From contig NZ_JH597773.1 in the NCBI RefSeq assembly GCF_000243335.1, forward strand, positions 2,659,684-2,723,683: 64,000 nt of DNA, in the 5' to 3' direction. This stretch comes from Leptonema illini DSM 21528. Lineage in GTDB: Bacteria; Spirochaetota; Leptospiria; Leptospirales; Leptonemataceae. The notes beneath the pieces were generated by a model. It saw nothing but the letters and a program-made list of their open reading frames with translations. It had not been told where the DNA came from and made no database searches. Positions 3,611-24,454 of this stretch are shown here, in pieces. Position 1 is the first letter of the stretch; each line of letters begins with the position of its first letter. The translations under genes and the position numbers were made by a program.

Positions 3611-3613
3611 GTA

Positions 3614-6886: not shown

Positions 6887-7012
6887 AACTTCCTTCAAGC
6901 CACACAGTGAGAGTCCGCTCTCTTCCTGAACAGACTTTTTCTTCTTCGCATCATCATCAGACGGACGAAAATCACTTGTTCTTAAACTCCACCTGCATCG
7001 AATCATCCTGTG

Positions 7013-8434
7013 ATGGAGCAGGAAAAGCCCTACAGAGAAAATGTCGGTATGGTCGTCTTTAATAGCGAGGGTTATGTCCTTGCCGGCGATCGCATTCAGT
7101 ATCCGGGCAGCTTTCAGTTCCCCCAGGGCGGAATTGATGCCGGCGAGTCGCCGCTTGCAGCTGCCAGGCGCGAGCTTTTCGAAGAGATCGGATTGGCGGT
7201 CACCGAACCGGCCGGCGAGATCGGCGAATGGCTGACCTACGAATTCCCTGAAGACATTCCCGAACACCTCAAGAAGTTCCGCGGCCAGAAGCAGAAGTGG
7301 TTTTTCTTCCGCTGGGATGGGAATCCGGCCGATCTACAACTTGATCTGCATGAGCGTGAGTTCCATTCTCTCAAATGGATGAAGATGGAAGATCTTGCAA
7401 AGGAAGTGGTCTCCTTCAAAAGGCCAACCTATGACAGGATCGCCCGCGAAGCGGCCCGGTTTTTAACCGACACCAGTAAGCCCGTTCTCGAATACCGCCG
7501 CTTTGGAATCGGTCTCGACGGGTATCGGCTCTGCGAAGAGGTTTCGATCTTTCTCAAGCCGGGCGAGATACTCGGGTTGATCGGCGAGTCGGGCTGCGGT
7601 AAATCCATCACGGCTCTGGCCGCAACGGGAACGCTGCCCGAGCCCGGCGGATATGCCGCTGGCGAAGTGCTGTTTAACGGTCGATCGATTTTCGCGATGA
7701 AGCCCGACGAGCTGCGCAGGCTTCGCGGAGCGGAGGTCGGCGTCATTTTTCAGGAGCCCGCTCAGGCGCTTAACCCTCTTCTGACGATCGGCAGGCAATT
7801 AAACGAAGTCTTTGAATTTCACGCGGAGCAGGCCGCCGAGCGCGGACTGAAAGCGTCGCAGCGAATCCCTGCTCTTCTTGAGCGTGTCGGATTCGCCGAT
7901 CCCGATCGATTGCTCTCTACCTATCCGCATGAACTGTCGGGCGGGATGCTTCAGCGCGTCGTCATCGTCATGGCGCTACTTCTCAAACCCTCGCTCATTA
8001 TCGCCGACGAGCCGACGACGGCCCTTGACGTGACGGTGCAGGCCCAGATCATGAAGCTGCTCGTCGAGCTGAAAACCGAGGAGCAGTGCGGCGTTCTTCT
8101 GATCACGCATAATATGGGGCTTGTCGCTCAGTACGCCGATCGACTCGCCGTCATGTATGCAGGCAAGGTCATTGAAGAATCGCCTGTCGACGTCTTTCTG
8201 TCAGAACCCGCCCATCCTTACAGTCGGGGATTGCTTGATGCGATTCCAGATCTTGAACGCAAACACGAACTGAAGGCCATTCCAGGACAGGTGCCGGCGC
8301 CGGCTCAGTACGACGACGGATGCCGTTTTCGCAACCGATGCCCGAAGGCCTTTGATGCCTGCGATAAACCGGTGCCCGTCACGGCGATGGGAAGAGATCA
8401 TCGCGTTCAGTGCTGGCTTTTCTCCCGTCCCTGA
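7013..8434 (+). CDS. RppH-like NUDIX hydrolase fused to an OppD/DppD-type ABC transporter ATPase
   Basis: One uninterrupted 473-residue frame joins two unrelated enzymes. Residues 1-150 are an RppH-like NUDIX domain with a complete NUDIX box at 39-61 (G-x5-E-x7-RELFEEIGL) and the RppH-style opening YRENVGMVV. Residues about 157-473 are an oligopeptide-transporter ATPase: Walker A GESGCGKS (191-198), Q-loop Gln247, signature LSGGM (308-312), Walker B LIIADEPTTALD, H-loop LITHN, and the C-terminal Cys-containing OppD/F domain (RCPKAFDAC). No in-frame Met or usable start occurs at the junction (FLTDTSKPVLEY). A GTG at 7010 is an alternative start. No permease or binding-protein genes adjoin; an OppF-like gene lies at the far right of the window. 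The next gene starts 6 bases downstream. Confidence 0.88.
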   Translation: MEQEKPYRENVGMVVFNSEGYVLAGDRIQYPGSFQFPQGGIDAGESPLAAARRELFEEIGLAVTEPAGEIGEWLTYEFPEDIPEHLKKFRGQKQKWFFFRWDGNPADLQLDLHEREFHSLKWMKMEDLAKEVVSFKRPTYDRIAREAARFLTDTSKPVLEYRRFGIGLDGYRLCEEVSIFLKPGEILGLIGESGCGKSITALAATGTLPEPGGYAAGEVLFNGRSIFAMKPDELRRLRGAEVGVIFQEPAQALNPLLTIGRQLNEVFEFHAEQAAERGLKASQRIPALLERVGFADPDRLLSTYPHELSGGMLQRVVIVMALLLKPSLIIADEPTTALDVTVQAQIMKLLVELKTEEQCGVLLITHNMGLVAQYADRLAVMYAGKVIEESPVDVFLSEPAHPYSRGLLDAIPDLERKHELKAIPGQVPAPAQYDDGCRFRNRCPKAFDACDKPVPVTAMGRDHRVQCWLFSRP

Positions 8435-8440
8435 TGTGCC

Positions 8441-10903
8441 ATGAAGCCCGAAACGGAAAAGAAACCGGCCTTCACGACCGTTCTGTCCCGACTTTCAGTC
8501 ATCGTTAGCTTCATAAGTCCGCCTGCTTCCCGCGAAGCCGAAAGAGTCTATGAACAGTCGATTCGAGGAGCGCAATTCCTTGGAACGGTTCTGCTGCTTT
8601 CTTTTTCCTACAGCCTGTGGCTTGAATATCATTCCGGGACTCCGGCTAACGTTCAACTCACGCTGGCACAATGGATCGCCGCTTTTCTCATCATCGTGCA
8701 ACCGCTACTGTTCAGGTGGTCGAATATACAGATTTTTTCGCGGCGATTCCTGAAGATGCAGGGCATGACGATAGTGTCGCGCTCTTTCGGACTGCTCATG
8801 GGAATCATCACAATCCTGGAAATGGAGACCCAGTTCCATGACGTGAATATCGATTACTCCGATGCGCGATCCTGGCTTGCCAACCTTGCTCTTATGGCCG
8901 CTTTTTCTTTTTTTCATATCGGCCCTCCGATTCAGTTCATCGCCGTATGGATGTTGGCATTTCTATACTATTTCGCGCGCATCATTATCATAAATCAACA
9001 TGAAATCCCGGTACCGCTCGTTTCTATGGCCAGCACGATCGTTCCGTTATCGGCGATCTGGATCATCGTCAACGCCTGGTGGTTTCGCATCCGTCTGCAA
9101 TATACGGAGGCCAGCGAGAACCTCAAAGCCGCAAATGCCAGGCTCACAGAAATCGATCGATTCCGGTCGAACTTCTTTGCCGGCATCTCGCATGAATTCC
9201 GCACGCCGCTCACGCTTATCCTGTCGCCTCTGCAGTCTTTTCTTGAAAAAGCCGAAGACGAAGAGTTAGCCAACTATCTGCAAAGCGTCAGGAAGAACGG
9301 TAATAGATTGCTCACGCTCGTAAACAACCTCATAGACCTGGCCCGGCTCGATTCGGGGCGTATGGATCTGCATCTCGAAGCCGTGGATCTATGCGAACTC
9401 GTGCGTGGAATCCTTGCCATCTTCGATCAATCCTTTCGCAGTCGCGGTCTCAGCCTGCGATCTGAGCTACCGCTGCAACTGCTGACGCGCCTCGACATCG
9501 AAAAAACCGAGACCATACTCATCAATCTGCTTGCAAACGCCCTTAAATTCACCGACGAGGGCGGAGCCATGGTCAGGGTGAAGCAGCAATCTCACCTGAT
9601 TGCGATCTCGGTCGAAGATACCGGCCCGGGGATTGAGGCCGATCATCGTCAGTCCCTTTTTGAGCGATTTGGCGCCGTTCGCACATCGCGTAGCGGCAGC
9701 GGACTGGGTCTTGCTCTCTCGCGAGAACTCGCGCGCTTTATGAACGGCGACCTGACGCTGCGTTCGGGTAACGGTGCGGGTTCAAGCTTTGATCTCACGC
9801 TGCCCCTTTATCCGATTCTCTTCAGAGAAAAGCAATCAGCGCGGATCACATCAAGCTTCTCGATGCCCGAAGAGATTTCGGCTCTACCTGTACCGGCCCT
9901 TGAACGCGAAACCGACAGACCTCTTGTTTGCATCGTAGAAGACGACGACGAGCTGCGTCAGTATCTGCATAGAATCATCGGCATGCGGTTCCGCGTCATT
10001 ACGGCGTCCGATGGCGCAGAGGCCTTTGATCTGGCTATCGATCATCCGCCCGATGCCGTAATTACAGATATCGTGATGCCATCGATGGATGGGTTCGACC
10101 TTTTGCAGCGGTTTCGCTCCAGCCGGGAACTGCGCGGCATTCCCTTTTTATTCCTGACGGCGCGGGCCGGCCTCGAAGATCGCCTCGAAGGCCTTCGCCT
10201 CGGAGGAGACGATTACCTTGTGAAACCGTTTGATCCGCCCGAGCTGCTTGAAAAGGCCTCCGTGCTCATTCGAAGAAAGCAGCGCGAAGAAGAGGGCCTG
10301 CGGTCGGAACGCCAGTCTCTCGTCGGCGATCTTCACGACATGGTCGGATCAGATCTTACCGATCTCTTGATCGTGCTTGGCTCGATGCAACCCGACGTAC
10401 CTCCAGGAGACAGCGTGGAAAGCGCCCGACGCCTGGCGCGCAACGTCCTCGGAGCGTTGCGCGACCGCATCCATGAAAGAGAAGATATGCAGCTGATCCA
10501 GGATAACTTCATGCACGGCGTGAAGGTTATCCTGAACCGACGCTACGCCGCCGTCGGCAGAGGGATTCGTTTTCGATTCGATACCGACGAAGAAGAAAGC
10601 TTCGTTGATCACCTCGATTTGCATCAACGACATGCTCTCTATGCAGTCTTTCTTGAGATCAGCACGAACGACCTCAAATACGGACAGGGCATCTCTACAT
10701 GGGAGCTCTCCTATCGGGGCGGCACCTTTCGCGCTACGTTCCAGGCACAATCCGCTCAGGAGACCGTCGGTCGGCTTTCCTTTATTAAAAGGCTCCGAGA
10801 CGAAGGAGGAGTCTGTTCTGAAAAAAATGAACGAGGATTCTATATCTTTCGTCTCAAGATGAAGCTAACCGGTCAGCGAAGTCGGCCATCGATGCTTCCT
10901 TGA
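8441..10903 (+). CDS. Membrane hybrid histidine kinase with a second, NarX-like histidine-kinase core
   Basis: The 820-residue product has about six N-terminal membrane spans (45-215), a short coiled coil, HisKA with His251 (GISHEFRTPLTLI), a complete HATPase (N-box NLLANALKFTD, G-boxes VEDTGPG and SGSGLGLAL), then a receiver with Asp543 (AVITDIVMPSMDG). After the receiver, about 200 residues form a second kinase-like module: LVGDLHDMVGSDL with His632 resembles the HisKA_3 H-box of NarX/DegS-type kinases, and LEISTNDLKYG resembles an N-box, but no clear DxGxG box remains. The two-core layout plus the following NarL-type regulator suggests a phosphorelay ending in that regulator. It starts at an ATG 6 bases after the NUDIX-OppD stop. 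Confidence 0.87.
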   Translation: MKPETEKKPAFTTVLSRLSVIVSFISPPASREAERVYEQSIRGAQFLGTVLLLSFSYSLWLEYHSGTPANVQLTLAQWIAAFLIIVQPLLFRWSNIQIFSRRFLKMQGMTIVSRSFGLLMGIITILEMETQFHDVNIDYSDARSWLANLALMAAFSFFHIGPPIQFIAVWMLAFLYYFARIIIINQHEIPVPLVSMASTIVPLSAIWIIVNAWWFRIRLQYTEASENLKAANARLTEIDRFRSNFFAGISHEFRTPLTLILSPLQSFLEKAEDEELANYLQSVRKNGNRLLTLVNNLIDLARLDSGRMDLHLEAVDLCELVRGILAIFDQSFRSRGLSLRSELPLQLLTRLDIEKTETILINLLANALKFTDEGGAMVRVKQQSHLIAISVEDTGPGIEADHRQSLFERFGAVRTSRSGSGLGLALSRELARFMNGDLTLRSGNGAGSSFDLTLPLYPILFREKQSARITSSFSMPEEISALPVPALERETDRPLVCIVEDDDELRQYLHRIIGMRFRVITASDGAEAFDLAIDHPPDAVITDIVMPSMDGFDLLQRFRSSRELRGIPFLFLTARAGLEDRLEGLRLGGDDYLVKPFDPPELLEKASVLIRRKQREEEGLRSERQSLVGDLHDMVGSDLTDLLIVLGSMQPDVPPGDSVESARRLARNVLGALRDRIHEREDMQLIQDNFMHGVKVILNRRYAAVGRGIRFRFDTDEEESFVDHLDLHQRHALYAVFLEISTNDLKYGQGISTWELSYRGGTFRATFQAQSAQETVGRLSFIKRLRDEGGVCSEKNERGFYIFRLKMKLTGQRSRPSMLP

Positions 10904-11097
10904 ATTCTGGTTGATACACCCTCAATGCGAATGTTGCCCTGCACGTGTATCTCCGGTAGATTTGTATGGAATCAATCCCTCTGGGCGATCCTGAGATTCT
11001 ATCGAAAAAGGGCTGACGATCGACGCTCAGTGCTTTTATTTGAATTCTGCCGGCAAATGAGCCCATTCAATCCCATAGATCCGGCGTCAGAAATTCT

Positions 11098-11742
11098 GTG
11101 AACGAAGAAGCGACAGCATCGGGAATCCGCATCGGCATCGTTGAGAACGATGCCCTGTTCTGTCAGTCCTTTGCCGAACAGATGAAACAGCTACCGGGCG
11201 TTTCTGACGTGTATACCTGGCAGAGTGCAGAAGCGGCCTACCACGATCTGCAGAATATCACCCTTGATCTGATCTTCATCGATATCGGCCTGCCCGGCAT
11301 GAGTGGAAGCGATCTGGTATCGGTGCTTGCCGATGAGAATACTGAGATGCGCATCCTCATGCTTACGTCGATTCGCACAGACGACGAGATCATGCGCTGC
11401 CTGAAACGCGGCGCCATCGGATATTTGCTCAAAGGAGAGCCGATCGATCTGCCCGAAGCCGTACGCAGCGTCATGGATGGAGGCGCCATCATGACGCCCT
11501 CCATCGCCGCGCGGGTGCTTCACCTCTTTCGCGGCCCGGACCGCACGCCGGTTTCTCTGACTCCCCGCGAAACACAGGTTCTTGAAGAGATCATCAGCGG
11601 CTATTCGGCGGCAGAGATCGCCCGCACCCTTGGAACGGCCGAGGGAACGGTCCGACAGCAGATCAAAAGCATCTATAGTAAACTTCAGGTGAGATCACGG
11701 GTACAGCTGATGCGCAAAGCCCGGGACCTCGGCTTTCTATAA
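11098..11742 (+). CDS. NarL/FixJ-family response regulator (REC-LuxR HTH)
   Basis: A 214-residue regulator starting at GTG (11098-11100). The receiver covers about 10-125, with acidic residues in IGIVEND and a phospho-acceptor Asp in LIFIDIGLPGMSG; the C-terminal LuxR-type helix-turn-helix is at about 150-210 (LTPRETQVLEEI, then AEIARTLGTAEGTVRQQI). It should bind DNA as a phosphorylated dimer. About 195 bases upstream ends the two-core kinase whose second module is of the NarX type, which normally pairs with NarL-type regulators. The 194-base gap between them shows no hairpin or clear promoter to me, so whether they are co-transcribed is open. Confidence 0.9.
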   Translation: MNEEATASGIRIGIVENDALFCQSFAEQMKQLPGVSDVYTWQSAEAAYHDLQNITLDLIFIDIGLPGMSGSDLVSVLADENTEMRILMLTSIRTDDEIMRCLKRGAIGYLLKGEPIDLPEAVRSVMDGGAIMTPSIAARVLHLFRGPDRTPVSLTPRETQVLEEIISGYSAAEIARTLGTAEGTVRQQIKSIYSKLQVRSRVQLMRKARDLGFL

Positions 11743-12104: not shown

Positions 12105-12491
12105 ATGGAAACGCCGTCCATACTTTCCGCTATCATACTGACAGCCATCCTTTCGAGCATTCTCAGCGGTGTGATGACCTCGGTCGCCCTTTACCTGTAT
12201 TTCAAATATCTCGAACGCACGAAACTGAACGCCGCACTCGATGAGTACATCGAGATCGTGAAGCAGCGGCTGAAAGAAGGCTTCGAAGAATCGGGTCGAG
12301 AGCTTCTTCCCGAATTCAAAGAAGAGGTACGCAAGGGCTTTAAAGAAGGAATGGCCGACGTGCTGCGCGGAGAACTCATCGACCAGACGGCCCGCTCCAT
12401 CGCTCGCAGCGGTGTCGATATCGTAGAATCCGGCTTCAACCTTCTAAAAGGCGCCTGGCCGAAGAACGAGGATAATCAACCGAATCCGTAG
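12105..12491 (+). CDS. Small membrane-anchored protein of unknown function
   Basis: A 128-residue protein starting METPSILSAIILTAILSS. Residues about 5-33 form one hydrophobic membrane span, and the rest is a highly charged, helical cytoplasmic or periplasmic region rich in Glu and Lys (KQRLKEGFEESGRELLPEF), likely amphipathic or coiled-coil. I do not recognise the family. It ends 6 bases before the TTG start of the giant repeat protein, so the two probably share a transcript and the small protein may serve in export or anchoring of the large one; that link is positional only. Confidence 0.7.
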   Translation: METPSILSAIILTAILSSILSGVMTSVALYLYFKYLERTKLNAALDEYIEIVKQRLKEGFEESGRELLPEFKEEVRKGFKEGMADVLRGELIDQTARSIARSGVDIVESGFNLLKGAWPKNEDNQPNP

Positions 12492-12497
12492 GTTCCC

Positions 12498-15400
12498 TTG
12501 TCTGCTCGCCGACGAATAGAATTCCCTCGATCCCTGAGCCCGCTGCTTACGGCGCTCGCCATGCTGCTTCTGGCATTGCGACCTTCGTTGCCGCTGCACG
12601 GCGAGGTATGGTCAGACCTTGAAGAGCCCGAATACTCCGGTAGCGAGGCCGAAGGGCACTATCCGTTTAACCTCGGCTACCTGGCCTACTACGAAAGCTG
12701 GACGAACGAACAGGGCAAGTCGCTGAAGTCAATAAACGTCTTTCATCTATGGAAGTTTACGTACTATCCGAAATATACGTCGGTGCGCTTCTTTCCGCTC
12801 TATTACAGCCAGCATTCGACGATAGACAGCCGCAGGCGGCGGCTTATCTTCCCTCTGTACTACGATCAGGTTTCGCGTGACGGAAAGGGATCCATGTCCT
12901 TCCTTCTTCCCGTCTATTATAATGAGTATAAGGATGAGCAGAATTCCCTTTTCCTATCTCTACTGTATGGCTCACGCTACCAGAATGGGGATGTGACGCG
13001 CTGGATCGGTCCTGTCTACTGGGGCAAAGATTCGAGCAAAGATGTGGCAAGAGGGGGGCTTTTTCCTATCATACAGTATCGTCGAGAGGGAAGGCAGAAA
13101 GAGCTTTTGCTTCATCCGCTACTCGGCCACTTCGAATGGGGTCCAGAACGTTCCGTTCATCTGTTCCCGCTCCTCCCGCTCTTACACTATTACTCCCGGG
13201 ACCAACAGGCGGATGAAACTACGTTCTACTTCATTCCTTTCTATCGAAGTAAAAAGTCTGACGAACGCTCCCGATTCCATATTCTTCCTGTTTATTTTTC
13301 GGGAGCAGACCGATCTCTTGACATGCAGACAGACTTCCAACTATTATTACCGCTTTTTTATTTATCATCCCGGGAGTCAAAATCTGCAAAGGATAAAAAA
13401 GCGCTCGCTCCGGTTATCCCGCTGCTATTCTACTATTCGAGAGGGCATAACCAGTACCGATCCTATGATACACTCTGGGTTCCCGGATACTTCTCGTATA
13501 ACGATCAATATGCCGATGCCGACGCCTACTCTCGAGGACGCTTTATTCCCGGAATTTACTATTCCAGCGAAGAGAAAGATCGCTCCGGCAGACAGAGCTC
13601 TTACACTAATATGGCGCTCCTGTATAACCGCTCCAAATCAACCGACCCCGAGTCCGGTGCCGCATCGTCATCCTACTCTGTTCTGCCATTCTTTTACTCG
13701 GGAGAAGGAAAAGACAGAGCGGGCAACACATACGACTCGCTCTGGGTTACGGGTTACTACTCCTGGAACAATAAAAGTACCGTTAATGACACAGAATCAT
13801 CCGGCTGGCTCATTCCACTGCTCTTCTACAACTCAAGCTCAACAGACAAACAGGGCAGACAGAGTTCTTACCGCAATATCGCACTCCTGTACAACCGCTC
13901 CACATCAAAAGATCCAGAGTCCGGCGCCGCATCCTCATCCTACTCCGTCCTGCCCTTCTTTTATTCCGCAGAAGGAAAAGACAGAGCGGGCAACACATAC
14001 GACTCGCTCTGGGCTACGGGCTACTACTCCTGGGACAACAAAAGCGCCGTCTACAATACGACATCATCCGGCTGGCTCATTCCACTGCTCTTCTACAACT
14101 CAAGCTCAACAGACAAGCATGGCAGAGAGAGCTTTTACAGCAATATCGCCCTCCTGTATAACCGCTCCAAATCAAGCGATCCAGAGTCAGGCGCCGCATC
14201 GTCATCCTACTCCGTTCTGCCTTTCTTTTATTCCACAGAAGGAAAAGACAGAGCGGGAAATACATACGACTCGCTCTGGGCTACGGGCTACTACTCCTGG
14301 GACAACAAAAGCGCCGCTAACGACACAGCATCATCCGGCTGGCTCTTCCCACTGCTCTTCTACAACTCAAGCTCAACAGACAAGCATGGCAGAGAGAGCT
14401 CTTACAGAAATATCGCGCTCCTGTACAACCGCTCCACATCAAAAGACCCCGAGTCCGGCGCCGCATCGTCATCCTACTCCGTTCTGCCTTTCTTTTATTC
14501 CACAGAAGGAAAAGACAGAGCGGGTAACACATACGACTCGCTCTGGGCTACGGGCTACTACTCCTGGGACAACAAAAACGCCGTCTACAATACGACATCA
14601 TCCGGAAATTTCATCCCGCTGTTCTTCTACAACACAAGCTCAACAGACAAGCATGGCAGAGAGAGCTCTTACAGAAATATCGCGCTCCTGTACAACCGCT
14701 CCACATCAAAAGACCCCGAGTCCGGCGCCGCATCCTCATCCTACTCCGTCCTGCCCTTCTTTTATTCCACAGAAGGAAAAGACAGAGCGGGAAATACATA
14801 CGACTCGCTCTGGGCTACGGGCTACTACTCCTGGGACAACAAAAGCGCCGCTAACGACACAGCATCATCCGGCTGGCTCTTCCCACTGCTCTTCTACAAC
14901 TCAAGCTCAACAGACAAGCATGGCAGAGAGAGCTCTTACAGAAATATCGCGCTCCTGTACAACCGCTCCACATCAAAAGATCCAGAATCAGGCGCCGCAT
15001 CCTCATCCTACTCTGTTCTGCCCTTCTTTTATTCCACAGAAGGAAAAGACAGAGCGGGCAACACATACGACTCGCTCTGGGCTACGGGCTACTACTCCTG
15101 GGACAACAAAAGCACCGCTAACGACACAGCATCATCCGGCTGGCTCTTCCCGCTGCTCTATTACAGTTCGAACGACCGAGATAAAAACGGCAAAGAGAGC
15201 TCTTACAGCAATATTGCGCTTCTCTGGAATTCCTCATCATCTCAGGAACGCGAGAGCGGTCATTTCACTCAAACGCAACACTTCCTTCCCCTGTACTTTT
15301 ACAGTAAACAGGACGGTATAACCGGATCCAGAGAAAGGCTGTGGGCGCTGTCTTTCTATCAATGGGATCTGAATTCACAAACGGAAGAGAGGTCGACCGG

Positions 15401-18400
15401 ATCATTCCTTCTGCCGTTCTACTATCATTCAGAGAAGAAGGATTCTTCTTTCTGGATGCTCAGTCCTCTTTACTGGTCTTCGACGAATCCCGAAACATCT
15501 GAAGCCTATCGCCTCAGCCCGATCCACTACGGACATCAATGGCGAGAGGGCGACTCTGAGCGTTATACAAACTGGACGCTTCTGTTTTTCAACTGGAGCC
15601 ACGAAGAAAGCGAAGGCGCGACCATTTTCCCATTTTATTATCGCTTCAAAGACGAAGAAAAAGAGTGGGAGCTTTACGCCATGGGAGCCGTCACAACGGC
15701 CGACGCAATGCTCCGCATAAGAGGAGACTCCATCTATCTCGACACCGATACATATGTGGGTTACGGACTGGTCGGCTGGTCTTCTCGTCTTCCCGTGTAC
15801 GATAGCGGGGCGTTTCAACGCTGGATGAGAAAGACGGAACAAACGACCGAAACGAATGAGACGACCGTGGTCGGCGAAAGAAGCGAGACGGGTGAAAGCG
15901 CTGATACCACGCCTCAAATACATAACGACCGCCTGGCCTCGTTCGATCGCGAGAATACATCGAGCTATTCTAAATTCCAGATGCTCTTCGGATGGGTTAC
16001 AAAGATCCAGGCAGATACGCGACACCACTTTCGCTTTCTGCCGCTTGCATGGGTCTCCTGGGACGACGCAAACAAAAACGAGTATTTAAAGTATTATCCT
16101 TTTCTTGGCCTGGATTACAGCACGCCGGAAGAACAGTACACCGCCCTTTTTCCGCTCTTTATACCAGTTTACGGCCGCCACACGAAAGGCGAGAGCTTTA
16201 CGGTCTCCTACGGTGGGCCATTCTATATTCGCAGCTACGATGCAGAAAAAGATGAACACGACCTGTACGCACCCTGGCCCTTCTTTAATAGATACAGCGA
16301 TCCGACGAAGAGCGGCACAAGGCTGATCCCTCTTTTCGCCTATCGTAAATGGAAGGATGAAGAGGGGCGGCATTCGCGATGGATCACGCTGCTATCTTAT
16401 CACCGCACGACAGAAAACGGAGATTCAACCTCTTATCTGACGATGAGTCCGGTATATTTGAGCTCCACGCAATTCGAACATGAAGATGATCCGCAGCGAA
16501 AAAGCGGCAAAGGCTGGACGTTCATTCTGCCGGCCATCACAAAAACCTTCGATCAAAAGGGATCTTCCTGGAACGCGCTCTTTGTTGCCGGAGGCTCCGG
16601 CACGTATGACGACAGCGAATCCTTTCACTATTTCTTTCCTATCTACTCTTACTTTCGAGATAGAAAGGAACGCAGTTTTCGCTACATCTGGCCGCTGGGT
16701 CGTATCTACGCAGAAGGCCTGAGCGAAGACGGATCGGCGGCGGATAACGGCTCTTACTTCTTTCCACTCTATGCTCAGAGGAGCTGGAAAGAAAGCGACG
16801 GACAGCACAATCGCTCGTTCTCGCTTTTGCACTACCATCACTCCTCTGAGAAAGAAAAGACGACATTCCTGCTTCCACTGCTCTACTACAGCGACGCAGA
16901 CACATCGGGCTCATCCTGGAATATCGCTCTGCTGACCGGAGGCAGCGAGAGAACGAACGGCGACAGAGGATTCTACCTGTTCCCGTTTTACTCCTATTCC
17001 AGAGACGTTAACAGAAAAGAAACAAGCCATAGCTTCCTCTGGCCGCTCGGTCGCATCTACAGAGCCGGTACAGGCGAAAACGAATCACCGGCCGATAGCG
17101 GGTGGTACCTGTTTCCACTCTATGCTCAGAGGAGCTGGAAAGAAAGCGACGGACAGCACAATCGCTCGTTCTCGCTTTTGCACTACCATCACTCCTCTGA
17201 GAAAGAAAAGACGACATTCCTGCTTCCACTGCTCTACTACAGCGACGCAGACACATCGGGCTCATCCTGGAATATCGCTCTGCTGACCGGAGGCAGCGAG
17301 AGAACGAACGGCGACAGAGGATTCTACCTGTTCCCGTTTTACTCCTATTCAAGAGACGTTAACAGAAAAGAAACAAGCTATAGCTTCCTCTGGCCGCTCG
17401 GCCGCATCTACAGCACCGGTACAGGCGAAAACGAATCACCCTCCGATAGCGGGTGGTACCTGTTTCCTCTCTATGCACAGAGAAGCTGGAACGCAAACGA
17501 CGGACAGCACAATCGCTCGTTCTCGCTTTTGCACTACCATCACGTGTCGGATCGCGAAAGCAGTACCTTCGTGCTACCGCTTCTTTATTACAGGGAATCC
17601 AATGCGACGTCGTCGGTATGGAATTTCGCCCTGTTTTCAGGAGGATCATCAGACAGGGACGGCAGTTCTTCTCTCTTCCTCTTCCCTGTGTACAGTTATA
17701 CGAGAGATGAGAAAAAAAAAGAAACCGACCACACGATGCTCTGGTTCTTCGGCCGTGCCTACAGCTACGGAGCCGCTGAGAAAGAAGACAGCGGTTTCTA
17801 TCTCTTTCCGGTTTTCGCACAGAGAGAGTATTCGGACCGAGAAGGCCGGCATAATCGCTCCTTCTCGCTGCTGCATTATTGGCGCCGCAGCTCGCACGAT
17901 GAAGGGAAGCGATCCAGCTATTTCCTCAGTCCGCTCTATGCCTATGAAAGCGACGAAAGCGGTTCGTCGTCCTGGAGGTTCGCCCTTCTATTCAGCGGAA
18001 ATTCATCGGCAGACGGTCGGGAATCCGACATTTCCTTCTTCCCGCTTTATTCAAACAGGCGAACACAGAAAGCAGAGAACAGTGAGACATCGAGCTACTT
18101 CCTCTTCCCGCTCTGGAAAAGTTATACATCTGAAACGAAGCAGAGAAGCGAGACCGACCGCTTCGTGCTCTGGCCTTTCTTTCGCTACAACAAAGAGTCG
18201 GCCTCAGGATTGAACACGACCCGATTGCGTTTTTATCCACTATTCTATTATACGAAAGAAGCGGGTTCGTGCGAAAACTGCGACAACAGCTATACGACGC
18301 TGTTCCCGCTCTACTTCAGAGGACGTGAAAAGAAGGCAGACGGCATAGAGTCGACGGATTTTGTTCTCGGATTCTACAGACACAGTACGGCGCAGACGGC

Positions 18401-19298
18401 ATATCATAACTTCTTCTATCTTTATGAATACGAAAGCGAACCGGCGTATTCAAAGCTGAACCTGCTTCTTGGCATGTACCATCAGGAGTCATCGCAGCGA
18501 AAAAACCAGGACATATTCCGCATACAGATGCTCTACGGCCTTCTTGCGGATGCCGACTGGTACGGCAGTACGTCGGGCTATGCGGGCGGATACGACACGC
18601 GCTGGCTGCTCTATTATCAGAGGAACAATGCTCCTGGCGAGAGAGATGCCTTTACCAGCGCCCTCTTTCCGCTCTGGCGCTATCACAGCAATCGAGAGGA
18701 ATCGTCCTTTCTCTTTGTTCCGACGCTCAGCTATCATACGCGCACAGGCGACAGTGCCTTCGACTGCGACATCGTCTGCCTCAGCTGGGGACGCATAAAA
18801 GAGCGAGATTCCCATACCTTCTGGCTCCTTGGCGGGCTGCTCTATCTCAAACAGGGTCGAACGGAGCGCGATTGGCTGAACGACGAGAGCGATTGGAATC
18901 TGCTCGGAAGGTATCCGCGCGAGGGCGAAACGGACTACTCCCGCTTCAGTCTGCTTGGCGGCCTGTACGGACGATCCAGGATAGAATCTGAGGGCTACAA
19001 ACGTGACCTCTATCTATGGGGAGTGCTTTATGGCCGGGAGTCCGACAGAACGGAGGGCTTCGATAAACACAGCTTCCTCTGGGGCGCCCTCTACGGCAGC
19101 GAAAGCCGGGCAAACGGATACCGACGCCAGAGTGTGCTCTGGGGACTGCTCTTCGAGGATCTCGAAGACCCCGATAAAGCATATAAAAGCTGGAGTATTC
19201 TTCAGGGGATCATCTATTCAAATGTCGATAATGGTCGTACGAACATCAACTACCGGCGCATCCTCGGCCTTCAGATCCTGAAAGGACCGGGGCGATAG
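12498..19298 (+). CDS. Giant exported FPL-aromatic repeat protein (2266 aa)
   Basis: The predicted start is TTG (12498); it gives a proper signal peptide (basic MSARRRIEFPR, then LTALAMLLLALRPSLPL). The mature protein is almost entirely short hydrophobic-aromatic strands such as LFPLYY, FLLPLLYY, VLPFFYS and LWPLGRIY, spaced 18-24 residues apart by polar Ser/Asp/Arg-rich turns. This predicts a very long beta-repeat structure (solenoid, barrel or fibre; not decidable here). Two exact DNA-level expansions occur: six 89-residue units (267 bp each, 13614-15215) and a 117-residue unit (351 bp, from 16771). No catalytic motif is visible. The N-terminal WSDLEEPEYSGS..ESWTNEQ and the C-terminal SWSILQGIIY match the next gene, its paralog. 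Function unknown; a surface or outer-membrane location is inference. Confidence 0.85.
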   Translation: MSARRRIEFPRSLSPLLTALAMLLLALRPSLPLHGEVWSDLEEPEYSGSEAEGHYPFNLGYLAYYESWTNEQGKSLKSINVFHLWKFTYYPKYTSVRFFPLYYSQHSTIDSRRRRLIFPLYYDQVSRDGKGSMSFLLPVYYNEYKDEQNSLFLSLLYGSRYQNGDVTRWIGPVYWGKDSSKDVARGGLFPIIQYRREGRQKELLLHPLLGHFEWGPERSVHLFPLLPLLHYYSRDQQADETTFYFIPFYRSKKSDERSRFHILPVYFSGADRSLDMQTDFQLLLPLFYLSSRESKSAKDKKALAPVIPLLFYYSRGHNQYRSYDTLWVPGYFSYNDQYADADAYSRGRFIPGIYYSSEEKDRSGRQSSYTNMALLYNRSKSTDPESGAASSSYSVLPFFYSGEGKDRAGNTYDSLWVTGYYSWNNKSTVNDTESSGWLIPLLFYNSSSTDKQGRQSSYRNIALLYNRSTSKDPESGAASSSYSVLPFFYSAEGKDRAGNTYDSLWATGYYSWDNKSAVYNTTSSGWLIPLLFYNSSSTDKHGRESFYSNIALLYNRSKSSDPESGAASSSYSVLPFFYSTEGKDRAGNTYDSLWATGYYSWDNKSAANDTASSGWLFPLLFYNSSSTDKHGRESSYRNIALLYNRSTSKDPESGAASSSYSVLPFFYSTEGKDRAGNTYDSLWATGYYSWDNKNAVYNTTSSGNFIPLFFYNTSSTDKHGRESSYRNIALLYNRSTSKDPESGAASSSYSVLPFFYSTEGKDRAGNTYDSLWATGYYSWDNKSAANDTASSGWLFPLLFYNSSSTDKHGRESSYRNIALLYNRSTSKDPESGAASSSYSVLPFFYSTEGKDRAGNTYDSLWATGYYSWDNKSTANDTASSGWLFPLLYYSSNDRDKNGKESSYSNIALLWNSSSSQERESGHFTQTQHFLPLYFYSKQDGITGSRERLWALSFYQWDLNSQTEERSTGSFLLPFYYHSEKKDSSFWMLSPLYWSSTNPETSEAYRLSPIHYGHQWREGDSERYTNWTLLFFNWSHEESEGATIFPFYYRFKDEEKEWELYAMGAVTTADAMLRIRGDSIYLDTDTYVGYGLVGWSSRLPVYDSGAFQRWMRKTEQTTETNETTVVGERSETGESADTTPQIHNDRLASFDRENTSSYSKFQMLFGWVTKIQADTRHHFRFLPLAWVSWDDANKNEYLKYYPFLGLDYSTPEEQYTALFPLFIPVYGRHTKGESFTVSYGGPFYIRSYDAEKDEHDLYAPWPFFNRYSDPTKSGTRLIPLFAYRKWKDEEGRHSRWITLLSYHRTTENGDSTSYLTMSPVYLSSTQFEHEDDPQRKSGKGWTFILPAITKTFDQKGSSWNALFVAGGSGTYDDSESFHYFFPIYSYFRDRKERSFRYIWPLGRIYAEGLSEDGSAADNGSYFFPLYAQRSWKESDGQHNRSFSLLHYHHSSEKEKTTFLLPLLYYSDADTSGSSWNIALLTGGSERTNGDRGFYLFPFYSYSRDVNRKETSHSFLWPLGRIYRAGTGENESPADSGWYLFPLYAQRSWKESDGQHNRSFSLLHYHHSSEKEKTTFLLPLLYYSDADTSGSSWNIALLTGGSERTNGDRGFYLFPFYSYSRDVNRKETSYSFLWPLGRIYSTGTGENESPSDSGWYLFPLYAQRSWNANDGQHNRSFSLLHYHHVSDRESSTFVLPLLYYRESNATSSVWNFALFSGGSSDRDGSSSLFLFPVYSYTRDEKKKETDHTMLWFFGRAYSYGAAEKEDSGFYLFPVFAQREYSDREGRHNRSFSLLHYWRRSSHDEGKRSSYFLSPLYAYESDESGSSSWRFALLFSGNSSADGRESDISFFPLYSNRRTQKAENSETSSYFLFPLWKSYTSETKQRSETDRFVLWPFFRYNKESASGLNTTRLRFYPLFYYTKEAGSCENCDNSYTTLFPLYFRGREKKADGIESTDFVLGFYRHSTAQTAYHNFFYLYEYESEPAYSKLNLLLGMYHQESSQRKNQDIFRIQMLYGLLADADWYGSTSGYAGGYDTRWLLYYQRNNAPGERDAFTSALFPLWRYHSNREESSFLFVPTLSYHTRTGDSAFDCDIVCLSWGRIKERDSHTFWLLGGLLYLKQGRTERDWLNDESDWNLLGRYPREGETDYSRFSLLGGLYGRSRIESEGYKRDLYLWGVLYGRESDRTEGFDKHSFLWGALYGSESRANGYRRQSVLWGLLFEDLEDPDKAYKSWSILQGIIYSNVDNGRTNINYRRILGLQILKGPGR
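13614..15215 (+). repeat. Tandem array, six units of 267 bp (89 codons)
   Basis: The same codons (GCxCTCCTGTA...AACCGCTCC, 'ALLYNRS') recur at 13614, 13881, 14148, 14415, 14682 and 14949, and degenerate at 15216: always exactly 267 bases apart. Units are near-identical at the DNA level, with long blocks identical including third codon positions, so the array is recent or homogenised by gene conversion. Each unit encodes four strand motifs about 22 residues apart. Confidence 0.92.
16771..17553 (+). repeat. Tandem array of 351-bp units (117 codons), two full copies plus a partial third
   Basis: The block starting ATGCTCAGAGGAGCTGG recurs at 16771 and 17122, and as ATGCACAGAGAAGCTGG at 17473: 351 bases apart each time. 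The first two copies are almost base-identical; the third keeps identity through GACGGACAGCACAATCGCTC and then diverges. A more decayed fourth copy follows 342 bases later (about 17814). Confidence 0.9.
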
Positions 19299-19364
19299 AA
19301 AGCGCATGGATCGGAGCCCGGGGCCGGATTCGCCGACAGGATTTTTCTTTCGCGATTTAAAAGA

Positions 19365-22300
19365 ATGAAACAGTGCCGCTATTCGATCGTCTTAACTAAA
19401 ATGAGCCCGTTCCGTCCAGTACTATCTGTTCTGCTTGCCCTGCTTGTTCTGGTCACTGCGCTTTCGGCCTTCTCTGATCTGTCGGCTCGCACCTGGGCCG
19501 ACCTTAAAGAGCCCGAGCTTCTCGGCAGCGCAAAAGAAGGCCGGATGACGGGCTTCGTTCTTGGGTCATACGAAAACTGGACAAACGAAAAGCGCCAGAA
19601 GCGAACGGCGCTCAGCCTCTTCTTCATCTTCAATGCGACGTGGTATCCGAAATACGATTCGGTCACTTTTTTCCCGCTCTATCATCGGCTGGCGAGTAAG
19701 ATCGACGATCGCCGCGAAACGATCTTTTTCCCGCTTTTCTGGCGGCAGTATGAAAACGCTGAAAACGACTTCCTGTTAACGCCACTCACCTACTACGATA
19801 AAGAGGACGGCGACACGACGACCGTCATCGGTCCCTATCTCGCCTGGTGGAAAAACTACGAGACGCAGGATCGACCGAGCTACAGGGGATTCGGTCTTTT
19901 CCCTCTCTTTCATCTTGGTACGGATTATGGCTGGCAGAACGGAAAGACGACCGTAGAAGAACGATCGCTCTATCTCTTCCCGCTCTTCAGCTATTTCGAA
20001 TGGAGCGAAAACCGATCGCTTCACCTCTTCCCGGCAATTCCATTCATCTACTATCATAAATCCAACGACAGCCACTACGGAAACGGTCGCTTCACCGCGA
20101 ACCGAAAGACGTTCTTGATCCCCTTCTATTCGTCGTCTTACGCCACGGAGGATGGATCGTCGTGGAGCTTCAATATCCTGCCGTTTATCTACTCCTCGGG
20201 TCGTTCGTTCGGACGTGAGGATCGCGGGTTTTTCACACATCTCTTTCCGTTTTTCTACTACGACTCCGAAGAGGACGCCGATCATTACTCTCGATCCATC
20301 CTCTTTCCGAGTATTCCCTTTCTCTTTTATAGCAAGAGCATGGAATCGAAAGATACGGCCTCTTCGACGTTATTCATTCTGCCGTTCTATCGTTCCAGCT
20401 ACTGGAGAAAGGATGGCGCATCTTTCGAAGAAGAAAGCGCCCATGCCTTCATTCCTCTCTACTCTTACAGCTCGCGCAACGACCGGTCAAGGCTGTGGGT
20501 CTTTCCCGTCTTCTTCTATAAAAACGGAGGCGAAAGCAGCACAACGTCATACATGCTTTTTCCGTTCTTCTTTAAGTCCTATACGCCGCCCACTGCCGAT
20601 TCCGAAGAAGAGACGGCTCTGTGGGCCATTCCCTTCTACAAATGGAAGGATAGCGTCAGCCACGGATCGCACTTCGTGCCTCTTTACTGGTATGAACGTG
20701 GAGGCGAATCTGACCTGACGATGCTGACGCCGCTCTACTGGAACTGGCGCAACGGCGATACGCATAAACAGGCCGGCCCTTTATTCTACACATCACGCTG
20801 GAAAGAGGATGTCGTTCTGACTGACGAGCCCCATAAAGGACTCAAAGAGCGACGTGAATACAGCACCACGTGGCTTTTCAACTACTACTCCTGGAATCAT
20901 CGCAAAAGCGAGGGTTATCTCTTTTTCCCTCTGCGCTATCGCGCGAGCGATCGTCTGAAAGAATATGATCTGTACATTCCGCTTACCTTTTCGACCAATC
21001 AAAGCCTTGCGAAGATAGAGAACGGCGGACTGTATCTTGACTCCGACTATTCGATCGGCTACGACGTATTCTCGGTATCGACGCGACTGCCGATCATCGA
21101 TCGTCGCATTCCCGATCAGTTCAAAAGAACGGACAGCCCTGAACTCTTCGACCCGGACGTGGCTAACGACACGACGTCAAAGACGACCGAGCCTGTTGAA
21201 ACGGCCGAAGGACCGACCGTCACAAGAGGCAAGGATATCGACCCGTTTGATCGCACGAACACAAGCGCCTACATGGGCTGGCGCGCCCTGTTCGGATGGA
21301 CGAGCTACGTGCGCGCAGACTCCCGCCGGCATTTTCGCATTCTGCCGCTTGCCTGGCTGTCATGGAACGAGGCCGACGAGAACGAGAAGATGACCTTTCT
21401 TTTTCCGCTCTATCTGAATTATAAAAGCGAAGAAGAGCAGTACATGGCCTTTTTTCCCGCTCTGCTGCCCGTTTATGGCGCCTACAACAAAGGAGAAAGC
21501 TTTGTTCGCGTCTACGGCGGTCCTCTGTATATCACCAGTTACGATGAAGAATTAAAGGAATCCGAGACCTCGATCCTCTGGCCTTTTTTCAAGCGTTATT
21601 CGTCGCCCGAAGAATCGGGGCATCGTCTTTTTCCCGTTTACAGCGCAAGGACTGAAAGGACCGAGGATGGCGAGCGTTTCAGAACCTTTTCCTGGCTGCA
21701 TTATGGAAGCGGCAAGACTGTGGCTACAGCGGACGAAACCCGAACGACATCTTCTTTCTTCAGTCCGCTCTATCTGAGCAGCGCAACACGCTACCAGCGC
21801 AAAGGTGAAGAGGCCCACCGCAGCGCCTTTCATTTCTTTCCGGTCCCAGTATTCACATATCTTGAAGATGACGCACGGGACGATTACAACATGCTGCTGC
21901 TTTTCGGTCTGGGCAACAGCGAAGACGGATCGTACAATTCCTTCTACGCGCTTCCACTGTTCTACAATTCAAGGGAGGCGACAGAAAAAGGAGATCGCAC
22001 CAACACATGGATCGCCAACCTGTTTCATTCGTATAACGATCCGGAAGAGCAGTACAGAGAGCAGGATGTGATCTGGCCGATCTTTCATTCTTATAGCGCA
22101 CCCGACCGGGAAGGCTGGAGGGTGTTCCCTCTTTTTGCCCATCACAGAACGACACAGCCCGATACACAAACCGTGACCCACTACTCGCCTTTGCACTACT
22201 CCACACAGCGTTCGGTGACAGGAGAGTATGCAAGCGAATCCAGATCGTTCTGGCTGCTGAACCTGTATCACAGTGAAACCTACGATAGTCGCACTCGCAA

Positions 22301-23219
22301 GGAAGACGACCGCTGGCTGATCTGGCCGCTTTTCCGCCGCTACAGAGAGGTCGGTCGCTATTCGGCGGGTTGCGACGATGTAGAAACCGATTACCGCCTT
22401 TATCCCGTCGTTTATTATACATACGAAAGCAAGGTCGGCAGCTGCAAGCCCGAAACGGAACATACCTTCTTCATGTTGCCCGCCATCTATATGAATCGCA
22501 CAGAAACGACGAGCACGGATTTTCTGCTCGGCTACTATCGCGATTCGGGCAAGGGCTACGGATTCCATAACCTGCTCTACCTCGCAGACTTTGAATACGA
22601 TGCCGATTCCGCGGAGTTCGGGCTCGCTTTTCATGCCGTAGAATACCGAAGCAGCAAAAGAGGTCACAGCTTTGAGTTGCTCTGGGGGCTGGCCGCCGAC
22701 TGGCAGACGTATAACGCAACGACAGGACAATACGCCCGCCCAGGCGGCTATGATTTCAGATTCCTGAATTACTTTCAGCGCAATAACAGCCACGAACACG
22801 GTCGCGAGTTCAAGACGGCGTTCTGGCCCGTTTACAGCTATTACAGCGACGAGAACGAGACGTCGTTCTGGTTTCTGCCGACGCTCAGTTACCATGAACG
22901 AAAGAAAGGCTACGCCTTTGACTCTGATCTGGCCTATCTTCTCTGGTTTCGTGAAAAAGACGAACAGCGTCGTATCGACGACAACTACATACTTGCCGGA
23001 ACGATCTACCGCCAGTACCGAAAAGACGAACAGGGATATAAAAGCCGCGGCTCGTTCTGGGGATGGCTCTGGGAATATGAGACCGAAGACGATACGGGCT
23101 ACGAGAAGTTCTCAATCCTTAAAGGACTGATCTACAGATCGGTCGAGCATCCGGCAGGGAATCGGCGATATGCGAAGGCCCTGATCTTCATTCCTCTCTA
23201 TGATAAAGAAATGCGTTAG
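19365..23219 (+). CDS. Exported FPL-aromatic repeat protein, shorter paralog (1284 aa)
   Basis: A second member of the family, 66 bases downstream of the first on the same strand. The signal peptide is best seen from the internal Met at 19401 (MSPFRPVLSVLLALLVLVTA), so 19401 is an alternative start to the ATG at 19365. The mature N-terminus (TWADLKEPELLGS..SYENWTNEK..WYPKYDSVTFFPLY) aligns with that of the giant protein, and the C-terminus (YEKFSILKGLIYRSV) matches too. Strand motifs such as TFFPLYH, IFFPLFW, YLFPLFSYFEW, FRILPLAWLSW and ILWPFFKRY recur every 18-25 residues. Unlike the longer paralog it shows no recent tandem DNA duplication. Function unknown; probably in the same transcription unit and compartment. 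Confidence 0.85.
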   Translation: MKQCRYSIVLTKMSPFRPVLSVLLALLVLVTALSAFSDLSARTWADLKEPELLGSAKEGRMTGFVLGSYENWTNEKRQKRTALSLFFIFNATWYPKYDSVTFFPLYHRLASKIDDRRETIFFPLFWRQYENAENDFLLTPLTYYDKEDGDTTTVIGPYLAWWKNYETQDRPSYRGFGLFPLFHLGTDYGWQNGKTTVEERSLYLFPLFSYFEWSENRSLHLFPAIPFIYYHKSNDSHYGNGRFTANRKTFLIPFYSSSYATEDGSSWSFNILPFIYSSGRSFGREDRGFFTHLFPFFYYDSEEDADHYSRSILFPSIPFLFYSKSMESKDTASSTLFILPFYRSSYWRKDGASFEEESAHAFIPLYSYSSRNDRSRLWVFPVFFYKNGGESSTTSYMLFPFFFKSYTPPTADSEEETALWAIPFYKWKDSVSHGSHFVPLYWYERGGESDLTMLTPLYWNWRNGDTHKQAGPLFYTSRWKEDVVLTDEPHKGLKERREYSTTWLFNYYSWNHRKSEGYLFFPLRYRASDRLKEYDLYIPLTFSTNQSLAKIENGGLYLDSDYSIGYDVFSVSTRLPIIDRRIPDQFKRTDSPELFDPDVANDTTSKTTEPVETAEGPTVTRGKDIDPFDRTNTSAYMGWRALFGWTSYVRADSRRHFRILPLAWLSWNEADENEKMTFLFPLYLNYKSEEEQYMAFFPALLPVYGAYNKGESFVRVYGGPLYITSYDEELKESETSILWPFFKRYSSPEESGHRLFPVYSARTERTEDGERFRTFSWLHYGSGKTVATADETRTTSSFFSPLYLSSATRYQRKGEEAHRSAFHFFPVPVFTYLEDDARDDYNMLLLFGLGNSEDGSYNSFYALPLFYNSREATEKGDRTNTWIANLFHSYNDPEEQYREQDVIWPIFHSYSAPDREGWRVFPLFAHHRTTQPDTQTVTHYSPLHYSTQRSVTGEYASESRSFWLLNLYHSETYDSRTRKEDDRWLIWPLFRRYREVGRYSAGCDDVETDYRLYPVVYYTYESKVGSCKPETEHTFFMLPAIYMNRTETTSTDFLLGYYRDSGKGYGFHNLLYLADFEYDADSAEFGLAFHAVEYRSSKRGHSFELLWGLAADWQTYNATTGQYARPGGYDFRFLNYFQRNNSHEHGREFKTAFWPVYSYYSDENETSFWFLPTLSYHERKKGYAFDSDLAYLLWFREKDEQRRIDDNYILAGTIYRQYRKDEQGYKSRGSFWGWLWEYETEDDTGYEKFSILKGLIYRSVEHPAGNRRYAKALIFIPLYDKEMR

Positions 23220-23224
23220 GCATC

Positions 23225-24454
23225 TCAGAAGAATCGCGAGAAGGCCAGCATCCACAACAGTGTCTGCATGACGGCAAGAAGAGCGGCCCAGGCCGCTCGA
23301 GCACTCCACAATCTCTCGGTTAACAGCGCCAGCGGTATCGAAAGAGAGAAGATCAGATCGAAGTCCCAGAAGAATCCGAGATCGAAGTTCCAGAGCGTTA
23401 TAAAGCCGATGAAGGCGCCCGTTAACAGAAGCAGTGCCGCATCGGCGGGGCTCATAACATCTCTCAGTAACGGCGGTGGCATGCGCAGCATCCGAACTGT
23501 GCGCATCACAAGCATCGGCAGAAGCAGCGGCGCTGCATAAACGAGAATCGAAAAGACGGCGACGATATGATTCCATGATCCAAACGTATAGGCGATAAAC
23601 GGATTGTCTGCATCTTCCGTAAAAGACACAAAGGCTTTACCATCCCCCCCACCCGAGGCGTTCATCCAGTCGAGTTCGAGGCCGGCCAGTCGAATCAGAC
23701 CAAGACCTACGGCATACATAAGAGCGACGATAACGACAGAGATCAACGAAAGCGATAAAATGCGCCCGACCGTCAGCGAATCGGGTAAACGAATCTTGAA
23801 AATACGACAGAGCCAGGGTAGAAGAGGAAGCACGGGAAGCCAGAAGAAATACACGCCATGCACAAGAACGGCCAGACCGAGCGCCATTGATGCGATGATG
23901 ACGTTGCGTGGAGTCGGACGATCTGCTGCGCGAAAGAGTGCGTGCAGAAAGAGCAATCCGGCAGGGACGGTGATCATCATCGTCTCGATATAGCCGCGAT
24001 AAAAGACCATCTGTAACGGTATCGCCGTGATAAGCATCCCCCTCACCGATAGATCTCGGGCATCGTGTTTCAGAGGCGCTTCGGGGCGGGCCATAAGCGT
24101 TTTTATGTCGGGCAGTTGCAACCACAGCCAGACAGAAAGGCCTCCCATAAGCGGGGGCAGAAAGAGACGCAGCGTCTGCGGCGCGATCGTCTGCGTTAAC
24201 AGAAGATGTGTGAGCGGCTCGGAGGCCCAGATGCGTCGTTCCGCCTTCTCATACATGCCCTGCAAGAAGGCGGCATCGCCAAGGGCGGGCAGGTTCTGTA
24301 GCGCGTAGAAGGCCATGCTTGCAACGACGACGGGCCAGACCTTCCCTCGTTTCGCGTAATAGAAGACGACACCGGCGTAGAACAACCACCGAAGGAAGGC
24401 GAAAAGCGGCAATGCGTTCTCAAACGAAAGCTGCAAAGAGGCGGCCGGACTCAC
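23225..24454 (-). CDS. Polytopic inner-membrane protein, unknown function
   Basis: The 409-residue product contains roughly ten hydrophobic spans (for example LRWLFYAGVVFYYA, MLITAIPLQMVFY, ILSLSLISVVIVALMYAVGL, ALLLLTGAFIGFITL) separated by short loops. A conserved-looking loop DADNPFIAYTFGSWNH precedes the last spans. The overall look recalls GT-C type glycosyltransferases, but I see no definite catalytic loop, so no activity is assigned. It starts at a GTG (24452-24454); the gene is divergent from the TPR-protein gene with 51 bases between, and converges with the repeat-protein gene with 5 bases between the stops. Confidence 0.75.
   Translation of the reverse strand: MSPAASLQLSFENALPLFAFLRWLFYAGVVFYYAKRGKVWPVVVASMAFYALQNLPALGDAAFLQGMYEKAERRIWASEPLTHLLLTQTIAPQTLRLFLPPLMGGLSVWLWLQLPDIKTLMARPEAPLKHDARDLSVRGMLITAIPLQMVFYRGYIETMMITVPAGLLFLHALFRAADRPTPRNVIIASMALGLAVLVHGVYFFWLPVLPLLPWLCRIFKIRLPDSLTVGRILSLSLISVVIVALMYAVGLGLIRLAGLELDWMNASGGGDGKAFVSFTEDADNPFIAYTFGSWNHIVAVFSILVYAAPLLLPMLVMRTVRMLRMPPPLLRDVMSPADAALLLLTGAFIGFITLWNFDLGFFWDFDLIFSLSIPLALLTERLWSARAAWAALLAVMQTLLWMLAFSRFF

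Follow-up and report, generated by a model that had tools for sequence, protein, structure and literature searches.

What might be the use of two adjacent giant genes whose products consist almost wholly of short aromatic repeats? The question is raised by Leptonema illini 3055T, in which the genes lie in tandem with 66 bases between them (Table 1), and we approached it from a window of 64,000 nucleotides, the whole stretch of DNA that was analysed. The products of 2266 and 1284 residues, hereafter proteins 1 and 2, had been described in an earlier note as paralogs; the ORF coordinates agree with this description, and their kinship is confirmed by BLASTP (28-31% identity, E 5e-89) and by a core tree in which the two are sisters (support 99/95). 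This position in the tree implies that the pair was born by duplication in the Leptonema lineage. Separate duplications of giants are seen elsewhere, in G148/G172 and in G029, the latter again in tandem.

Table 1. Features of the giant pair and its first neighbour, in window positions
Feature	Position	Strand	Remark
128-aa ORF	12105..12491	+	translation: one hydrophobic N-terminal helix, then charged helical tail
Giant FPL-repeat protein 1, 2266 aa, LA_1737 family	12498..19298	+	TTG start
Signal peptide, protein 1, approximate	12498..12602	+	translation; family N-termini aligned
Tandem array, 6.1 copies of 89-aa (267 bp) unit, protein 1	13587..15220	+	
Conserved core, protein 1; homologue of the protein 2 core that was modelled	15339..16406	+	
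Tandem array, 2.7 copies of 117-aa (351 bp) unit, protein 1	16761..17725	+	
LA_1737_Cterm domain (NF047486), protein 1	18609..18986	+	E 6.7e-23, 81.4 bits
Giant FPL-repeat protein 2, 1284 aa, sister of protein 1	19365..23219	+	
Signal peptide, protein 2, approximate	19365..19487	+	translation; family N-termini aligned
Conserved core, protein 2, 362 aa; single-layer beta-meander in the model	20622..21707	+	
LA_1737_Cterm domain (NF047486), protein 2	22803..23150	+	E 2.6e-27, 95.7 bits

The 128-aa ORF, which has no match in Pfam and whose stop lies 6 bases before the start of protein 1, is possibly the first gene of the transcription unit of the giants. Hybrid histidine kinases, a GGDEF response regulator and a LuxR-type regulator are clustered directly 5' of the giants (2711-11742), and an ORF at 7010-8431 (+) encodes an unusual fusion of a NUDIX domain with a following ABC transporter ATPase that bears an oligo_HPY tail. 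Convergent with protein 2, an ORF at 23225-24454 (-) encodes a 409-aa multi-TM protein that has no Pfam match.

Repeat pattern

We counted 53 hhPh motifs in protein 1, against a mean of 4.1 and a maximum of 12 in 1000 shuffled sequences, and 29 in protein 2 (shuffled mean 3.7, maximum 13); hydrophobicity shows autocorrelation peaks at lags of 20 and 42 residues. The caps read ESWTNE/ENWTNE at the N-terminus and SILQGIIY/SILKGLIY at the C-terminus of the pair. Shuffling, autocorrelation and sequence confirm the earlier claim of exported proteins made almost entirely of aromatic repeats between conserved caps, the repeats being of ~20 residues.

The 89-aa unit of protein 1 is composed of two half-units of ~44 residues, each with one Pro and one non-Pro segment, and the motif spacing is 43/46. 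Copies within the 267 bp array match at 89%, and recent in-frame duplication of DNA (267 bp x 6.1 and 351 bp x 2.7) accounts for some of the length of protein 1. A 759-aa ORF in another frame (13042-15321, +) overlies the former array; it is probably an artefact and not a gene, because the repeat unit is divisible by three.

Predicted fold

The core of protein 2, modelled from an alignment of 21 sequences, is predicted to be an essentially all-beta antiparallel meander of mostly ~6-residue strands, with a pLDDT of 78.5 overall and of 90-95 over the last ~100 residues, a pTM of 0.58, and a low-confidence linker at core residues 166-195. The model of a full-length relative of 1062 aa, made from 20 sequences, is also nearly all beta, with a pLDDT of 55, a pTM of 0.31 and confidence only in the core. 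These models support the earlier expectation of a very long, regular beta structure, most firmly in the core, and the confident core model rules out disorder or low complexity. We disregard the Foldseek matches to teneurin, Rhs, LRP, DDB1 and IFT proteins, whose TM-scores lie below 0.2.

Along the core model, hydrophobic turns (mean 0.56-0.87), most of which contain Pro, alternate with polar ones (0.06-0.18, and 0.37 in one longer loop). Therefore, the FPL motif seems to be the tip of a hairpin, not a strand. Segments such as LFPLYY had been read as strands before, a reading that has to be given up, since the Pro motifs sit in the loops joining the 6-residue strands of the core model, and the pairing of charges across the motif fits a hairpin. 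The latter was evaluated from sequence alone by within-protein shuffles: opposite charges pair between residues ~5-11 positions before and after the Pro in the giants (z -4.5, 0/1000 shuffles), in the short relatives described below (z -2.1, 15/1000 shuffles) and in both together (z -5.0), values that are somewhat optimistic because the motif windows overlap; other bands gave z between -2.3 and +1.6. Mutual information near the motif is highest on antidiagonals close to the Pro, and since heterogeneity of the motif may inflate it, we relied on the charge test instead. The charge test thus supports the model, in which every repeat contributes one hairpin, with two strands of ~6 residues, to a single-layer beta-meander.

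With ~10.6 residues per strand, as in the core model, and the beta-sheet spacing of 4.8 Å per strand, the two giants would have ~117 and ~210 strands and reach roughly 56 nm and 100 nm if fully extended, and a short form of ~500 aa would have ~47 strands and reach ~23 nm, all three lengths being upper bounds.

Open antiparallel meanders of short strands are likewise found in OspA, the TCP10 (G-box) domain of CPAP/SAS-4, MORN and the beta-belt of ApoB100, with no sequence relation found between these and the window proteins. Compared with single-layer sheets, the core gave VIA Z values of 7.5-9.8, and those of 8.3-9.8 over ~100 residues for the OspA, TCP10 and MORN type are near background for common sheets (4mpz, 5.0 Å over 96 residues; 2hkd, 4.5 Å over 103; 6t68, 3.5 Å over 103). 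Because these values are little above those of any such sheet, we take the likeness to OspA, TCP10, MORN and ApoB to be a resemblance and not kinship. To our knowledge, none of these sheets carries alternating hydrophobic Pro-turns along one edge.

A different reading of the same strands is that giants and short forms are integral outer-membrane beta-barrels whose aromatic segments span the membrane, which would make the giants barrels or arrays of unprecedented size. Most intact members end in an alternating strand, with hydrophobic residues at -1, -3 and -5 in 81-85%, a polar residue at -2 and a final L, F or I; this strand resembles the C-terminal signal of outer-membrane proteins and keeps the barrel alive, and the low-confidence parts of the 1062-aa model contain strands of 10-13 residues with a weak likeness to LptD, usher and VDAC (Z 5-7). 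However, the confident core is an open sheet with strands of ~6 residues, where a membrane-spanning barrel would need 9-14, and it has the Pro motif in a turn; opposite charges face each other across this motif, the aromatic segment is hydrophobic on both faces, and both window proteins bear charged residues past the last hydrophobic strand. The barrel, one of the options offered earlier, is not established by these data, and we consider it unlikely.

The LA_1737 family and its short subfamily

No named domain family had been recognised in the earlier note. Both proteins in fact match NCBIfam NF047486 (LA_1737_Cterm) above its curated cut-off of 60 bits (Table 1), although this model gives no function and spans only ~158 C-terminal residues; it is matched in 47 of 296 Spirochaetota genomes. 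What it describes is the C-terminal cap, which is the same across Spirochaetota members and common to the window proteins, while the repeats, the fold and the short subfamily are omitted from it. The full-length members, 731 to 2333 aa long, share a signal peptide, caps at both the N- and the C-terminus, and a central core. An N-terminal block (W-x-D-L ... GSEKEEKY ... E-x-W ... YPKY ... FFPLYY) is aligned across members, including both window proteins, and the core is strongly conserved across classes.

A Pfam scan of proteins 1 and 2 returned only sub-threshold matches to DUF3078 and Alfin, a PDB sequence search with protein 2 gave no match, and Pfam MlaA, MlaC, MlaD and MCE matched none of the window proteins, their relatives or the short forms. 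A single-sequence scan of the genome contigs with protein 2 likewise found no match; a profile from a 6-row alignment of the family served for the genome search. Nothing above the cut-off was found in 14 control genomes outside Spirochaetota, no family match in plasmid searches, and no paper on LA_1737 in the literature.

In the neighbourhoods fetched around the giants, no gene recurs as a conserved neighbour, and the search for MlaE and MCE genes matched generic ABC ATPases only. In family f31 (loci L051, L052 and L055), the gene in front of the giant resembles an ABC substrate-binding protein for metal (zinc-type) and a ZIP-like transporter comes after the giant, an arrangement local to this lineage. 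Giant genes with in-frame stops occur at L103:7920-11700 and G029:C18 and may be decaying copies or assembly errors. An LPS-linked role was rejected: LpxC is listed in no f12, f23 or f31 genome, yet 18 giant-bearing genomes fall there, and the presence of giants therefore does not follow that of LPS.

Searching the Leptonema genome itself with a profile revealed a third paralogue of 528 aa (G000:C1:2931814-2933400, or L113:2815-4401, - strand), whose neighbours are an acyltransferase-like gene on one side and a gene for a multi-TM protein on the other. Short relatives of 465-577 aa are present in 29 of the 30 Leptospirales genomes, and short forms of ~520-620 aa in seven other families (f12, f23, f31, f35, f39, f41 and f46). 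No Pfam or NCBIfam model, NF047486 included, matches the short forms tested. Alignment of the giant core with the short form by hhalign gave a probability of 97.9% (E 5e-13, 118 columns), and the A3 profile matches short forms at about 1e-12 to 1e-21. Judged from these profile comparisons, the short subfamily is a new finding, an unannotated relative of the giants.

Linkage of the short gene to mlaE-mlaF-mlaD

The short gene lies directly 5' of mlaE-mlaF-mlaD, which encode the MCE phospholipid transporter, and is co-directional with them in 45 of 51 testable genomes. Within Leptospirales it adjoins mlaE in 21 of 27 (G217 and G205 were left out of the count on account of contig ends), the non-adjacent cases being Leptonema, G062, G085, G090, G179 and G029; in genus g2 the short gene stands apart from mlaE. 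In Leptonema the distance is 5989 bp, with the short gene on the upstream side of the genome's only mlaE and on the same strand. Outside Leptospirales, all 24 sampled genomes from seven families have the order short-mlaE-mlaF(-mlaD). The gap between the short gene and mlaE is mostly -43 to +54 bp, with several Leptospirales pairs overlapping by 4 bp, and the surroundings of the pair differ between families while the adjacency stays.

MlaE was placed by a PF02405 search; at the L156 locus Pfam recognises MlaE (5e-70), MlaD twice and ABC_tran, and the loci beyond it were annotated with profiles built from these. A gene of ~1000-1100 aa after mlaD in several genomes proved by its sequence to be the large subunit of carbamoyl-phosphate synthase and is unrelated. 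At three loci outside Leptospirales (L243:5827-6507, L245:8586-9251 and L247:4506-5198), an exported protein of ~225 aa adjoins the operon in divergent orientation. The only literature found that names Leptospira together with MlaE is an Acinetobacter study.

E. coli Mla (MlaFEDB, MlaC, MlaA) uses MlaC and MlaA on the periplasmic/outer-membrane side. MlaE is found in 28 of the 30 Leptospirales genomes and MlaA in none of them, so that the MCE system of this order has no recognised candidate on the outer-membrane side. Within the class, MlaA is absent where the short protein is present, and the eight f3 genomes that have MlaA are all without the short form, an exclusivity that could reflect one or two ancestral events. 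MlaC is patchy: a weak homologue is kept by many Leptospirales, and there is no match in the Leptonema genome. TamB is essentially absent from the class. Since the f3 genomes carry giants alongside classical MlaA and MlaC, the giants are not simply a substitute for these two proteins.

Discussion

We propose, with belief and doubt about evenly balanced, a family of beta-ribbons whose short form serves MCE lipid transport and whose giants are expanded paralogues with the same hydrophobic edge. Each repeat of ~20 residues would form a beta-hairpin, with the hydrophobic (h)FPL turn on one edge of the ribbon and a charged turn on the other, and the ribbon would therefore be greasy on one edge and polar on the other over its whole length. 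The strongest inference, drawn from gene order, is that the phospholipid ABC transporter MlaE-MlaF-MlaD may have in the short protein a partner that is conserved but has so far gone unannotated. As the first gene product of the operon, it would fill the place of the partner at the periplasmic or outer-membrane side that MlaC and MlaA hold in E. coli, and there it probably acts. Its export signal and putative hydrophobic-edged ribbon make it a plausible lipid path or acceptor, which might offer lipids a hydrophobic path or docking edge from the transporter to the outer membrane. Among other MCE systems (PqiABC, LetAB), a comparable partner is PqiC, on the periplasmic/outer-membrane side of PqiAB (PMC10897342); the short protein would be placed like PqiC.

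The giants would have grown from the short plan through internal repeat duplication, and they probably hold or guide envelope lipids with the same hydrophobic edge. This role is probably related to that of the short form, with which they share the family and the predicted repeat, but it stands one step weaker; because the giants have no conserved or MCE neighbours, their function is read from homology to the short form over ~118 columns. The earlier guess of a lipid conduit receives real though indirect support from the mlaE-mlaF-mlaD operon of the short paralogue. The analysis itself establishes the repeats, the export signals as read from sequence, the homology, the predicted fold of the core, the alternation of its turns and the operon linkage of the short form; we infer the cellular location, the contact with lipid, the direction of transport and a function common to giants and short form.

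Bridge-like lipid-transfer proteins such as TamB, AsmA-like proteins and VPS13 form a long extended beta-sheet with a hydrophobic lipid track between membranes. The likeness is a functional analogy only: in the predicted ribbon the hydrophobic element would be the edge formed by turns, whereas in those proteins it is a concave groove, and the TamB profile (PF04357) matches neither the window proteins nor the Leptonema genome.

The ribbon might also have no lipid role and serve as a periplasmic scaffold or spacer, for example setting the width of the envelope around the endoflagella, with shared regulation accounting for the link to mlaE. The predicted lengths could span or line the periplasm, and giants occur in most Leptospirales yet without MCE neighbours. 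Against this, the adjacency to mlaE is kept in several families whose surroundings differ, and a hydrophobic edge would be costly for a mere spacer; we find this explanation improbable. Slightly less probable again is a surface fibre, adhesin or coat, a ribbon displayed outside with a variable repeat number as in surface repeat proteins: signal peptides, great length, the recent repeat expansion in protein 1 and a meander arranged much as in OspA, a lipoprotein of the cell surface (Z up to 9.4, rmsd 4.5 Å, 103 residues), would suit it, but neither window protein has a lipobox, as read from sequence, or a known surface-anchoring or autotransporter domain in Pfam or NCBIfam, the short member is the kept operon partner of an inner-membrane lipid transporter, and strong core conservation across classes is unlike that of a host-interaction surface. 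The surface fibre of the earlier note finds no support.

Returning to the lipid-serving ribbon, a bolder version is that these proteins constitute a new class of lipid carriers in spirochaetes, single-layer hairpin ribbons with an unbroken hydrophobic edge of Pro-turns, which would connect the MCE transporters with the outer membrane and replace MlaA (in some genomes also MlaC), with giants possibly 50-100 nm long. We regard this version as possible but doubtful.

How phospholipids pass through the periplasm is an open question, and an unannotated gene of the mlaE operon that recurs across families is a direct candidate for a part in it. The giants, in turn, provide a clear test of whether a beta-ribbon with a hydrophobic edge carries lipid. 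A lipid role, if true, would mean that the LA_1737 family, at present no more than a name, has a function, and the MCE linkage of the short form across the phylum suggests an overlooked part of the lipid traffic in the spirochaete envelope.
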